DNA from: Kribbella sp. NBC_00382 | GTDB taxonomy: Bacteria > Actinomycetota > Actinomycetes > Propionibacteriales > Kribbellaceae | NCBI RefSeq assembly: GCF_036067295.1 | Contig: NZ_CP107954.1 | Coordinates: forward strand, 2,542,001 to 2,606,000 | Reading direction: 5' to 3' | DNA length: 64,000 bases | Part shown: positions 28,512-53,781 of the stretch, in pieces | How the letters are laid out: each line of letters opens with the position of its first letter | Numbering within the stretch: position 1 is the stretch's first letter | The notes under the pieces: model-generated | What the model was told of the DNA's origin: nothing | What the model saw: the letters and a program-made list of their open reading frames with translations, nothing else | The model's database searches: none | Position numbers and translations under genes: made by a program

Positions 28512-28537
28512 CGAGCTATCGTTGACGAAGTAACAAA

Positions 28538-28650
28538 ACCTCCGCGGGAGCTCGCGCCGATCAGCGGGCTGAGAGGGCGACGAGCTGTAGAACCAGCCGG
28601 GTCGCCGACCGCCTGAACCTGACCGGGTAATGCCGGCGTAGGGAGCAGGT
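28538..28650 (+). ncRNA. TPP (THI-element) riboswitch
   Basis: The conserved thi-box blocks are present: GCGGGCTGAGAGG near 28564, CCTGAACCTGACCGGGTAAT near 28612, and GCCGGCGTAGGGAG at 28632-28645. They match the pyrimidine- and pyrophosphate-sensing helices of TPP aptamers. The final GGGAG is also the SD of the gene at 28656 (10 nt before ATG), and the CTCC near 28539 could pair with it in P1. Ligand binding should therefore directly block translation. Confidence 0.93.
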
Positions 28651-28655
28651 CAGCC

Positions 28656-29984
28656 ATGACCACTACCGCTGCACGCACGTCCACCGCCACCGAGGCGCCG
28701 CTCGTCCTGACCACGGACGCGCCCCGCACCTTGGGGTTCCTCGACCAGTTCACGCTCTGGGGCAACTTCGGCATCTCGCTGTTCGGCCCGGTGACCGGCG
28801 CGCTCGTCGCGGCGTACACGGGTTCGCTGGTGAAGGGCCTGATCGCCGTCGTCGTCGGCTGCGGGATCGGCGCTCTGGTACTCGGCGGCGCCGCCGTCTT
28901 CGGCTCGCACACCGGCGCACCCGCGATGGCCAGCCTGCGTGGGCTGTTCGGCCGCCGTGGCTCGATGGCGCCGACGGTGCTCAACATCGCGCAGAACATC
29001 GGCTGGGCCACGATGGAGATCATCGTGATCTCGCAAGCGGCCGTGGCGGTGACGAGCGAGAGCTGGCGCTGGCTGTTCGTCCTGATCGCCGGCTTCATCG
29101 CGACCGCGATGGCCGTCCGGCCGCTCGGCAGCGTGAAGATCCTGCGCAAGTTCATGGTCTGGCTGGTCCTGCTGGCCTCGGTCTACCTGTTCATCCAGGT
29201 ACTCAGCAAGCCGGTCCACGACCTGCCGCAGGACAGCGTCTTCGGCTTCTGGCCGGGTGTCGACCTCGCCGCGGCCGGCGTTGTCTCGTTCGCGCCGCTC
29301 GCCGCCGACTACACCAGGCACTCGCGTACCAACAAGGCCGCCTTCGCCGGTTCGGCCCTCGGCTACGGCCTCGCCGCGATCCTGTACTACGCACTCGGGG
29401 TGATCGCCGTCGCCACCCTGCAGACCAACAGCACCGACGTGATCACCGCGCTGGTCACCCTGCCGGCCGGCGCGATCGCGTTGTTCGTCCTGCTGGTCGA
29501 CGAGGTGGACGAGGCCTACGCGAACGTGTACTCGACCACGATGGCCGCGCACAACCTGATCGGCCACATCGACCGGCGCTGGATCTCCGTTGCCATCGGC
29601 ATCCTCGCCACCGTGCTCGCGCTCTTCGTTGACCTGGGCAACTACACCCAGTTCCTGTACCTGATCGGATCGGTCTTCATCCCGTTGTTCGCGGTCGCGA
29701 TCGCCGACTTCTTCGTGGTCAGCAAGATGAACTGGGACGTCTCCGACACCGCCAAGTTCCGCTGGCAACCCACCCTGGCCTGGGTCTTCGGCTTCGTCGC
29801 CTACCAACTCGTCAACCCCGGCACGGTCGAAGGCTGGTCCCCGTTCTGGCTCGACCTCCAGCAGTCCCTCTTCAACAACCAGCCGGTACCGGGCTGGCTC
29901 GGCGCGACGTACACGTCGATCGTGGTGTCGATGGTCGCGGCGATCCTGTTCGGCCGGCTGGGACGGGCCAAGCAGACCGTCTAG
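28656..29984 (+). CDS. cytX: NCS1-family permease, CytX-like (thiamine pyrimidine precursor uptake)
   Basis: A 442-residue membrane protein of the nucleobase-cation-symport-1 family with about 12 helices. The first helix region FLDQFTLWGNFGISLFGPV and the segment NIAQNIGWATMEIIVI match the substrate-site helices 1 and 3 of NCS1 proteins. A TPP riboswitch immediately upstream points to uptake of hydroxymethylpyrimidine (CytX) instead of cytosine. No thi biosynthesis gene is adjacent. Its TAG stop shares CTAG with the stop of the convergent flavodoxin-fold gene. Confidence 0.85.
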   Translation: MTTTAARTSTATEAPLVLTTDAPRTLGFLDQFTLWGNFGISLFGPVTGALVAAYTGSLVKGLIAVVVGCGIGALVLGGAAVFGSHTGAPAMASLRGLFGRRGSMAPTVLNIAQNIGWATMEIIVISQAAVAVTSESWRWLFVLIAGFIATAMAVRPLGSVKILRKFMVWLVLLASVYLFIQVLSKPVHDLPQDSVFGFWPGVDLAAAGVVSFAPLAADYTRHSRTNKAAFAGSALGYGLAAILYYALGVIAVATLQTNSTDVITALVTLPAGAIALFVLLVDEVDEAYANVYSTTMAAHNLIGHIDRRWISVAIGILATVLALFVDLGNYTQFLYLIGSVFIPLFAVAIADFFVVSKMNWDVSDTAKFRWQPTLAWVFGFVAYQLVNPGTVEGWSPFWLDLQQSLFNNQPVPGWLGATYTSIVVSMVAAILFGRLGRAKQTV

Positions 29985-50656: not shown

Positions 50657-52249
50657 TCAGCGGCGTTTGGGGACCCGGACGACCAGGGAGCCGGGCTCGA
50701 CCTCTGCGGTCAGTGTCCGGCCAGGGCCGATGCCGTCGCCGTCGAGTTGACGCTGAACGTCGACCGCCGAGGTGATCTCCACCTTGCGCCCGGTGAAGCG
50801 CTCCAGGTACATCTCCGTCCGCTTCGTCCGCGTCATCACCCGCCAGAACACCAGCGGCCACTGGGTCACCCGCCGCGGCGCGATCACCACGACGTCGATC
50901 AGCCCGTCGTCCGGCCGCGCGTCCGGCAGCAGCGGGATGTTCGCCTGCAGCATCCCCACGTTGCCGACCACGACCGTCCGCACCCGGCGCTCCACCGGCT
51001 CTTCGTCGTCCAGCACGATCCGGACCTTCACCGACGGGTGGTTGATGTTCTTCGCCGCCGAGACCAGGTAGGCCGTCCAGCCGATCTGCGCCTTGAGGAT
51101 CGGCGGCGCCCCGGTGATGATCGCCGCGTCCAGCCCGAGCCCGGCCATCACCGCGAAGTGATCCGTATCGAGCCCGTCGCCGGACACCTTGACCAGGTCG
51201 ATCCGCCGGTCCCGCCCGTCCAGGATCCGCTCCAATGCGTCATCCAGATCCAGCGGGATATGCAGATTCCGAGCGAGCAGATTGCCCGTACCGGCCGGAA
51301 TCACACCAACCGGTATGCCCGTACCTGACAACGCCGCGCAAACCACCCGTACCGTCCCGTCGCCGCCGGCGACCAGCACCAGATCCGACTCGTTCTCGAT
51401 CGCCCGCTTGGCCATCGCGTTGCCCGCATCGTCCTCCCGCGTCTCCAGCCACAGCGGGTCGTCGAACCCACGGACCGCCAGCGCCCGAGTCACCTTCCGC
51501 CGGAACGCCACCCCGTCGCCGACCTTGATCGGGTTGACGATGACGGCTGCCCGCGGCGGTATCGACGTACCGTTCCCGTCTTCCGGCGTACGCCGACGCC
51601 GGCGCCGCAACCCGGGCCTGAGCCCGAACCCGATCGACGTCGCCGTCAGGATCGCCAGCCCGAGCGCCCAGCCACCGAGTACGTCGGACACCCACTGCAC
51701 GTTCAGGAACACCCGGTCCATGGACGCGATCCAGACCACCGCGATCGTCGGCAGCGTCACCAGCAGCCGGAACCGGCGTCGCCAGCCGCGCACTGACGGC
51801 AGCACCACCCCGAGCGCCCCCGCCATCACGAAGGCGGCGGTGGCATGCCCGGAGACGTACGACCAGCCGCCGGACTCGACCAGCATCTGAGTCGGGCGCG
51901 GCCGATCGAAGATGTGCTCGGTCGCCTGGACGAGCCCGAGCTCAGCCCCGGCGGAGACGATCAGCCACACGGTCAGCAGCCGGGCGCGGCGGTGCCACAG
52001 GTAGATGGCGACGACCAGGATCACGGCTCGCGAGGTCCACGGCAGGATCACCGCGCCGACCACCTGCCAGACGTCCACCATGTTGTCGTGCGCCGCGCCG
52101 TACGAGAACACCCGCGAGGCGACCGACTCATCCCAGCGCCGCAACGGCGGCCACTCCCCGAAGACCAGCAGGGTCACCACGATGAACGGCAACGCACCCA
52201 GCACAACCGTCAGCGCACGGCCAACGTGAGTCGGTGGATGGTGGTTCAT
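50657..52249 (-). CDS. PAP2-like / diacylglycerol kinase fusion with altered phosphatase residues
   Basis: A 530-residue fusion. Residues 15-205 are a PAP2-type membrane domain with about six helices. Its motifs are EHIFDRPRP (111-119, Glu in place of the usual Lys), SGH (133-135, intact) and DRVFLNVQWVSD (178-189, Gln185 where the nucleophile histidine of motif 3 is expected). Residues 232-530 are a DAGK catalytic domain with GGDGT (295-299) and PAGTGN (318-323). The kinase looks active on a lipid, while the phosphatase part may be dead. It diverges from serS. Confidence 0.85.
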   Translation of the reverse strand: MNHHPPTHVGRALTVVLGALPFIVVTLLVFGEWPPLRRWDESVASRVFSYGAAHDNMVDVWQVVGAVILPWTSRAVILVVAIYLWHRRARLLTVWLIVSAGAELGLVQATEHIFDRPRPTQMLVESGGWSYVSGHATAAFVMAGALGVVLPSVRGWRRRFRLLVTLPTIAVVWIASMDRVFLNVQWVSDVLGGWALGLAILTATSIGFGLRPGLRRRRRRTPEDGNGTSIPPRAAVIVNPIKVGDGVAFRRKVTRALAVRGFDDPLWLETREDDAGNAMAKRAIENESDLVLVAGGDGTVRVVCAALSGTGIPVGVIPAGTGNLLARNLHIPLDLDDALERILDGRDRRIDLVKVSGDGLDTDHFAVMAGLGLDAAIITGAPPILKAQIGWTAYLVSAAKNINHPSVKVRIVLDDEEPVERRVRTVVVGNVGMLQANIPLLPDARPDDGLIDVVVIAPRRVTQWPLVFWRVMTRTKRTEMYLERFTGRKVEITSAVDVQRQLDGDGIGPGRTLTAEVEPGSLVVRVPKRR

Positions 52250-52270
52250 ACCGGCTGATTTCCCCCTTTA

Positions 52271-52432
52271 GAGGCTCGTGAGTGGTGTGGATCGACGCTG
52301 GAGGCGCCCAGGCACGCACCTCGCGGCACCTGAGCAGCATCCACGATGCTCCGCATCGAGGACGCTCCTCACGCACCGCGATGCACGCACCTGGCCACCT
52401 CCATCGTTCGATCCACACCACTCACGAGCCTC
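52271..52432. repeat. 162-nt palindromic element with perfect 25-bp ends
   Basis: The outer arms 52271-52295 and 52408-52432 are perfect complements (left begins GAGGCTCGTGAGTGG). Inside, 40 of 54 arm positions still pair, with the centre at GATGC-TCC-GCATC (52345-52357). The whole element is close to one long hairpin. It lies alone in the 257-nt gap between the divergent PAP2-kinase gene and serS. I see no flanking target-site duplication. Confidence 0.85.
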
Positions 52433-52506: not shown

Positions 52507-53781
52507 GTGATCGATGCCAAATTGCTCCGTGAGAACCCCGATGTCGTCCGCGCGTCCCTGACCAAGCGTGGCGAGAGTACCGACCTGGTCGACCAGGTCC
52601 TGGCGGCCGACGGTGATCGTCGATCGTCCATCGCGGCGTTCGAGTCGTTGCGCTCGGAGCAGAAAGGCCTCGGCAAGCAGGTCGCGCAGGCCAAGGGCGA
52701 CGAGCGCACCGCGCTGCTCGAGCGCACCAAGGCGCTCGCCGCCGAGGTGAAGGCCAATGAGGCCGCCGCAGCCGAGGCCGAGACGCGTTTCGACGAGTTG
52801 GCCGGCAAGCTGCCGAACCTGGTCTCCGACGAGGCCCCGGTCGGCGGCGAGAAGGACTTCACCGTCGTCGAGGAGATCGGCAAGCCGCGCGACTTCGCCG
52901 CCGAGGGCTTCGATCCGAAGGACCACCTCGAGCTGGGCGAGCTGCTCGGCGCGATCGACATGGAGCGCGGCGCGAAGGTGTCCGGCGCCCGGTTCTACTT
53001 CCTCAAGGGCGTCGGCGCGCTGCTCCAGCTCGGCATGCTCCAGCTGGCCATCGCCCAGGCGGTGGAGAACGGCTTCACCCCGATGATCACCCCGTCCCTG
53101 GTCAAGCCCGAGATCATGGGCGGCACCGGCTACCTGAACGCCCACGACGACGTCTACCGGCTGGAAGAGCCCGAGCTCTACCTCGTCGGTACGTCCGAAG
53201 TCCCGCTCGCCGGGTACCACATGGACGAGATCCTCGACGTCTCCGCCGGCCCGATCCGGTACGCCGGCTGGTCGTCGTGCTACCGCCGGGAGGCGGGTTC
53301 TTACGGGAAGGACACCCGCGGGATCATCCGTGTCCACCAGTTCGACAAGGTCGAGATGTTCTCCTACTGCAGCCTCGAAGACGCCGCCGCGGAGCACCAG
53401 CGGCTGCTCGGCTGGGAGAAGGAGATGCTGGACAAGATGGAGCTGGCTTACCGGGTGATCGACACCGCGACGGGTGACCTGGGCGCTTCGGCGTACCGGA
53501 AGTTCGACTGCGAGGCCTGGGTGCCGACCCAGGGCGCGTACCGCGAGCTCACCTCCACCTCGAACTGCACCGACTTCCAGGCCCGCCGGCTGAACATCCG
53601 GCACCGCGACGCCGACGGACGTCCGCGTCCGGTGGCGACGCTGAACGGCACCCTGGCCACCACCCGCTGGCTGGTCGCGATCCTCGAGACGCACCAGCAG
53701 GCGGACGGCTCGGTCCGGGTCCCAGCCGCGCTCCGCCCGTACGTCGGTGGTCGCGAGGTCCTCGAACCGGTGGGCAAATGA
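52507..53781 (+). CDS. serS: serine--tRNA ligase
   Basis: A 424-residue class II synthetase that charges tRNA-Ser. Residues 1-110 are the coiled-coil tRNA-binding arm ([16 protein letters not shown]...[15 protein letters not shown]). Motif 2 is [27 protein letters not shown] (about 259-285). Motif 3 is [20 protein letters not shown] (about 379-398). The start is GTG with a leaderless -10. It overlaps a HAD phosphatase gene by 4 nt (ATGA), an arrangement common in actinobacteria. It is essential in all known bacteria. Confidence 0.97.

Follow-up and report, generated by a model that had tools for sequence, protein, structure and literature searches.

A 162-nt palindrome upstream of serS in Kribbella as a probable MITE-like element, with related hairpins across the actinomycetes

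Introduction

The closest described kinds of element to the one considered here are RUP, Correia/NEMIS and ERIC. RUP, from Streptococcus pneumoniae, is a MITE related to IS630-Spn1 that is small, multi-copy, intergenic and without a gene, and which has TA as its target; its ends are like those of an IS630-family element, and mobilisation in trans by an IS630-type transposase has been proposed (PMC2229807). Correia/NEMIS and ERIC are palindromes of ~100-200 bp with TA termini, the transcripts of which would form long stem-loops (PMC2229807).

The hairpin found beside serS resembles RUP in being small, multi-copy, intergenic and gene-free, with a TA target and IS630-like ends, but differs in that it is one full-length hairpin with a class-wide core and strand-specific covariation, shows replication polarity in one genus, and has no detectable IS630 transposase in its own genome. 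With Correia/NEMIS and ERIC it shares size, palindromic form, TA termini and deletion variants, although the hosts differ, the arms here vary strongly yet stay paired, and the likeness claimed is one of description. REP/REPIN elements, with their RAYT (Y1) transposases, are hairpin-based small mobile DNAs that act via a folded strand, whereas the serS-type hairpin is much longer and eight of nine genomes tested lack a Y1 transposase. Single-strand transposons of the IS200/IS605 type likewise have strand-specific hairpins and an orientation tied to replication; the present hairpin differs from these too in the missing Y1 enzyme, and in having its hairpin strand on the leading-strand template. 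The family was not found described in the literature searched, a body thin in subscription papers, and is apparently undescribed.

Here, the copy beside serS was examined within a window of 64,000 nucleotides from Kribbella sp. NBC_00382 (contig NZ_CP107954.1; genome G000 below), together with its relatives. The palindrome is probably a non-autonomous, MITE-like mobile element inserted at T^A, which would depend on a TA-targeting transposase supplied in trans, on a folded strand and on a step tied to replication.

Results

The palindrome at serS

The original prediction, drawn from the letters of the window, described a near-perfect palindrome between a PAP2-kinase gene and serS, and a near-palindrome of 162 nt is indeed present at 52271-52432. 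The outer arms (52271-52295 and 52408-52432) are 25 nt each, 100% complementary and separated by 112 nt. Alignment of the copy with its own reverse complement gave 80% identity across the 162 nt, with which the earlier hand count of 40 matches in 54 inner positions agrees once one 1-nt bulge is allowed; unshifted, the inner part is out of register and matches at 8/56. Two details require correction. The first is the placement: the palindrome lies upstream of a minus-strand PAP2/diacylglycerol-kinase-like ORF (50657-52249), 21 nt from its start codon, and 74 nt from the serS start at 52507. Read on the minus strand, it would therefore form the 5' leader of that ORF. The ORFs that overlap the palindrome are mechanical only, with no transposase gene inside.

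RNA folding gave -147.4 kcal/mol (z = -17.3) for the minus strand and -113.4 kcal/mol (z = -12.3) for the plus strand, with 0/200 shuffles as good in either case. This bears on the second detail, which is that the two strands are not equivalent: where the inner part fails to match, the minus strand forms G.U wobbles and the plus strand has A.C mismatches. The features of the copy are as follows.

52271..52432, minus strand: whole element, serS copy; minus is the more stably folding 'hairpin strand'
52408..52432, minus strand: 5' outer arm of the hairpin strand, GAGGCTCGTGAGTGGTGTGGATCGA, perfect complement of the 3' arm
52271..52295, minus strand: 3' outer arm of the hairpin strand, complementary to the 5' arm
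52296..52407, minus strand: conserved hairpin core, with a fixed bulge, mismatches and tandem G.U pairs
52312..52321, plus strand: direct repeat GCACGCACCT, copy 1, which folds into tandem UG/GU wobble pairs; the wobble columns are invariant
52383..52392, plus strand: direct repeat GCACGCACCT, copy 2, on the same basis
52345..52357, minus strand: apical stem-loop, GATGCTCCGCATC in plus-strand reading, from folding and alignment
52269..52270, no strand: TA adjoining the left side of the copy; the right side has GA

With TA on the left and GA on the right, the serS copy is without an intact TA pair. Elsewhere in the window, a TPP riboswitch at 28534-28661 (RF00059, 61.9 bits) was the sole Rfam match at gathering level.

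Copies in the genome and genus

A BLAST search for copies, as the original prediction had proposed, returned 17 close ones in G000 (one contig of 8,486,922 bases), and a covariance model made from 46 copies added three divergent ones, for a total of about 20, of which the serS palindrome is one. Matches were present in 41 of 99 relatives searched, nearly all of the same genus, and most genomes of the genus carry copies. The 46 copies align almost gap-free to a 164-nt unit, AGTG..CACT, in which the apical loop alone varies, by 1-2 bases. The copies have the character of MITEs in being short (162-164 nt), fully inverted, free of a transposase gene and dispersed, several to a genome.

Many insertions in G000 (L010, L012, L014, L016, L021, L022 and L023) overlap stop codons, which is probably due to the scarcity of TA elsewhere in these G+C-rich genomes, and two (L018 and L024) sit inside the loop of a terminator-like hairpin. 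In L020, L341, L348 and L364, the two sides of inner stem segments vary together and still pair (GTGCTTCAGCTCC / GGAGATGTGCAC type), as though they had been exchanged jointly.

Insertion sites and decay

The serS locus was read in 30 genomes, the window's own and those of 29 relatives. The full element is absent from the spacer in 29/29 relatives, most spacers being ~35 bp, and that of G036 retains a short arm-like remnant. In G021 the serS/PAP2 spacer (L064) is occupied by another hairpin of this kind, distinct and divergent, which still has GGCACGCAC..GCACGCACC and the loop GATGCTCCGCATC in common with it, and in G033 the serS spacer (L063) contains the terminal part of a TnpB-like gene, together with an IS605-like right end. 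The serS spacer seems to be an insertion hot spot.

The joined flanks of 14 other copies were searched for empty sites in seven relatives, most of which proved empty at the alignable junctions. The cleanest case reads CACACT^AAGCGG in five relatives, a sixth differing at one base, against CACACT-(element)-AAGCGG; a further empty site, GGCT^AGTGTG, was found in G026, in which the L014 site is a collapsed remnant. Presence and absence thus alternate at orthologous sites, as for MITEs and, because the serS spacer and most other comparable sites are empty in relatives, these alignments indicate that the genome copies are insertions. An unrelated spacer with no other copies, the finding against which the original prediction had set its mobile-element and conserved-RNA readings, is not what the relatives display: their spacer is empty, and many copies exist. 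Among its three readings, that of a MITE-like element is upheld by the 17-20 dispersed copies, the empty sites, TA-type junctions and the likeness of some arms to IS630 ends, whereas that of a cruciform regulatory site is not supported, the element being absent from the serS spacer in the relatives examined and its copies standing beside unrelated genes.

Among 52 copies the element's terminal A and T are nearly fixed, and the T and A next to them occur in only about half. At TA targets the junction reads alike whether a 162-bp element duplicated the TA or a 164-bp element went in cleanly at T^A; fixed termini set against variable flanks lean towards a clean insertion with T^A preference. The likeness of the two junctions, and the flanks, of which about half on either side are TA, count against the MITE-like reading.

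Arm searches also recovered short forms of 91 nt, each equivalent to a deletion running from one GCACGCACCT repeat to the other, along with ~36-nt remnants. A full-length IS with the genus's arm-B ends was considered and rejected, since the single arms proved to belong to deletion remnants or divergent copies, or to be lone ends.

Pairing conserved on one strand

Both sides have changed in 45 of 68 pairs, against 24.9 expected, although related sequences inflate such double-change counts. Paired cells amount to 97.8%, compared with 82.8% after shuffling and 31-48% with the partner slid, a control that retains relatedness. On the hairpin strand, 37 copies of equal length have 350 G.U and 11 A.C oppositions, fixed wobble columns included, and 46 copies have 34 and 4, respectively, in their outermost 25 pairs, which are variable. 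For 68 copies from other genera the corresponding G.U counts are 158 on the hairpin strand and 90 on the opposite strand. In every copy the hairpin strand is the more stable strand, with RNA and DNA parameters alike. Mutation bias at replication was rejected, by inference, as a source of the G.U excess: the C-to-T bias of replication would yield A.C on the hairpin strand.

No Rfam family matched the element at gathering score, and relaxed thresholds gave generic miRNA-type hairpins, all sub-threshold. The structured RNA offered as a third reading is a possibility: one strand keeps its structure with strong covariation, but there is no Rfam fit, and the orientation to neighbouring genes varies. 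It is highly improbable that the copies serve the host, either as genes for structured RNA or as leader elements kept for regulation. Such a role would accord with the strong covariation and strand preference, with the class-wide conservation of the core and with the serS copy's position, from which it would lead the PAP2/kinase-like gene, but presence varies site by site, the Rfam matches are generic and sub-threshold, and orientation to neighbouring genes is inconsistent (tandem and same-sense in 8 cases, tandem and antisense in 6, divergent in 2 and convergent in 1).

Fast arms and a slow core

Arms and core were compared between pairs among the 52 copies of the genus. Where cores differ at 0-2 of 114 nt, left arms differ on average at 8.4/25 and right arms at 8.3/25; with at least 11 core differences, the arms differ at about 11 positions. 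Each copy nevertheless has 0-2 arm mismatches, despite the sequence change. One pair of copies in G028 has identical cores but arms that differ at 7/50 positions. Long-term selection for pairing together with a constrained core could explain the fast arms, as could the renewal of one arm from the other. The young copies of G063 have common arms, as in ordinary MITEs.

Arms, IS630 ends and the mover

Inverted ends flanked by TA were taken from IS630-type (DDE_3) loci and matched to 276 element arms. The L317 end GTGCCGCATCAGGCAACGTT matches the L118 arm at 17/20, both being in G338, and across genomes the L321 end GTCTTCTGAGTCGGGAGTTC matches the L052 arm at 17/20 and the L134 end GTGGTCTGTCTG.. 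the L177 arm at 15/20. With 300 shuffled ends, the best of the 276 arms scored 13-15. L321, being a short fragment, and L134, judged IS630-like by eye from its sequence, are both weaker cases than L317. For some members, then, the likeness exceeds that of shuffled controls: certain arms resemble the ends of IS630 elements, and the element in turn resembles a MITE. The arms of the window's own copy gave no match to a known transposon end.

No IS630 (DDE_3) locus was found in G000, nor in G002, G012, G013, G028 or G035, although G028 holds ~30 copies. IS630 was accordingly rejected as a resident mover in G000, where the mover may have been lost or not recognised, and the lack of a DDE_3 match in both G000 and G028 counts against the MITE-like reading. 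The Y1 (HUH) transposase, PF01797, was absent from 8/9 genomes tested, G000 among them, and Y1/RAYT was rejected as the mover on this basis.

Orientation and replication

Replichores were set with dnaA as origin and its antipode as terminus. Among the matches listed, which under-represent lower-scoring copies, 149/157 copies from 14 genomes have a minus hairpin strand if they lie on the right replichore and a plus one if on the left, and the hairpin strand thus corresponds to the leading-strand template. Within the genus alone the polarity is kept in 136/140 listed copies from 11 genomes (two-sided binomial p ~2e-35, with copies treated as independent, though some may share descent). In G000 it is kept in 20/20, the strand of the 17 close copies being called from sequence and not from G.U pairs, and in three other genomes in 13/17 of the matches listed. 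A number of the exceptions are found close to the terminus or the origin. The orientation of neighbouring genes (8 same-sense, 6 antisense) does not account for the polarity. Copies at 2338495 in G000 and 4394469 in G027, ~3 kb from dnaA, occupy apparently the same site in two species in opposite orientations.

A universal polarity was rejected, since G063, G232 and G042 show opposite orientations within one contig, in G063 just 4 kb apart as confirmed by sequence. The pairs 4 kb apart in G063 hinted at a composite transposon, which was discarded because the DNA between them is not shared.

Palindromic ends offer a DDE transposase no reason to prefer one orientation, which counts against the MITE-like reading, as do the mixed orientations in G063, G232 and G042, and two other accounts bear on this point. 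In the first, copies would insert either way, and those with the stronger hairpin on the lagging-strand template would be deleted or cleaved as unstable palindromes. The genus copies do have their weaker (A.C) strand on the lagging-strand template (DNA folding -60.5 vs -80.9 kcal/mol) and deletion derivatives are common, yet polarity is already present in nearly all high-scoring copies, both orientations persist in G063, and survival alone does not explain the conserved pairing; this account is a possibility, if a somewhat unlikely one. In the second, which is considered quite unlikely, the element would move via a folded single strand, either a DNA hairpin or an RNA copied to DNA, instead of by classical DDE transposition, with forks orienting insertion and self-primed copying of the hairpin renewing the arms, so that pairing survives change. 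It would suit the one-strand pairing preference, the polarity of the 136/140 listed genus copies, seen also in high-scoring and presumably young ones, and arms that differ by ~8/25 per side at 0-2/114 core differences with 0-2 mismatches per copy, as well as the fixed terminal A/T beside unfixed flanking T/A, which fits clean insertion without duplication. Against it stand the lack of a Y1 (HUH) transposase in 8/9 genomes, the likeness of arms to IS630 ends in some genomes, the leading-strand template position, opposite to that predicted by simple insertion of the folded strand into the lagging-strand template, and G063, which is without polarity and whose young copies share arms in ordinary-MITE fashion.

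Spread across the class

Full-length matches occur in 41/297 genomes of the class, G000 included; the matches listed include loci in Streptomyces, Kitasatospora, Microtetraspora, Pseudonocardia, Nocardioides, Rhodococcus, Frankia and others, with hairpins of equal length in Streptomyces, Nocardioides, Frankia, Pseudonocardia and Rhodococcus. A hairpin covariance model can match unrelated hairpins, as the miRNA-type Rfam matches warn, and class-wide members were therefore accepted on the shared core (GCATCGCAAGG.., ..CAACGCNGCGAGG) and not on model score alone. They have in common the core GCATCGCAAGGCGGAGG..GACAACGCNGCGAGG and TA-flanked ends, and the arms differ between subfamilies. The core is present on nine Streptomyces plasmids, and the phage and viral collections searched gave no match.

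In L115, a coreless palindrome of ~60 bp (CTAGGGCCTGTCGTCAAAC..GTTTGACGACAGGCCCTAG, at 1668-1730) directly adjoins a full element, an arrangement suggestive of insertion at that element's end. Streptomyces loci L154, L155, L158, L164, L186 and L216 have an extra small hairpin (GGAGGGGGTACCTCCC..GGGGGAG) within one side of the core.

That these are class-wide mobile hairpins distinct from classical MITEs, with replication-coupled transposition or renewal through a folded strand and arms rewritten as pairs, is regarded as unlikely.

Discussion

In the MITE-like reading, which is preferred here, a transposase that targets TA and resembles those of IS630/Tc1-mariner elements would bind the ends in trans and cleave them. 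At some step the folded single strand (minus in the window), be it RNA or single-stranded DNA, would matter and not the duplex, as suggested by the toleration of G.U but not of A.C, and in this genus that step may be tied to the replication fork. Once inserted, copies would decay through deletions inside the palindrome. Two features are not those of ordinary MITEs, namely arms that change yet stay paired and, in this genus, the agreement of orientation with the direction of replication.

Although long palindromes tend to be unstable, this one has been kept in many genomes of actinomycetes, and one of its strands has retained its pairing. The family is a repeat left unannotated in genomes, those of Streptomyces included, that are intensively searched for natural products. 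If the polarity in the genus, an observed pattern that arises by insertion or by survival, is set at insertion, the family would be a natural, countable record of replication-coupled transposition; if it is set by survival, the family would be a record of palindrome stability at the fork.
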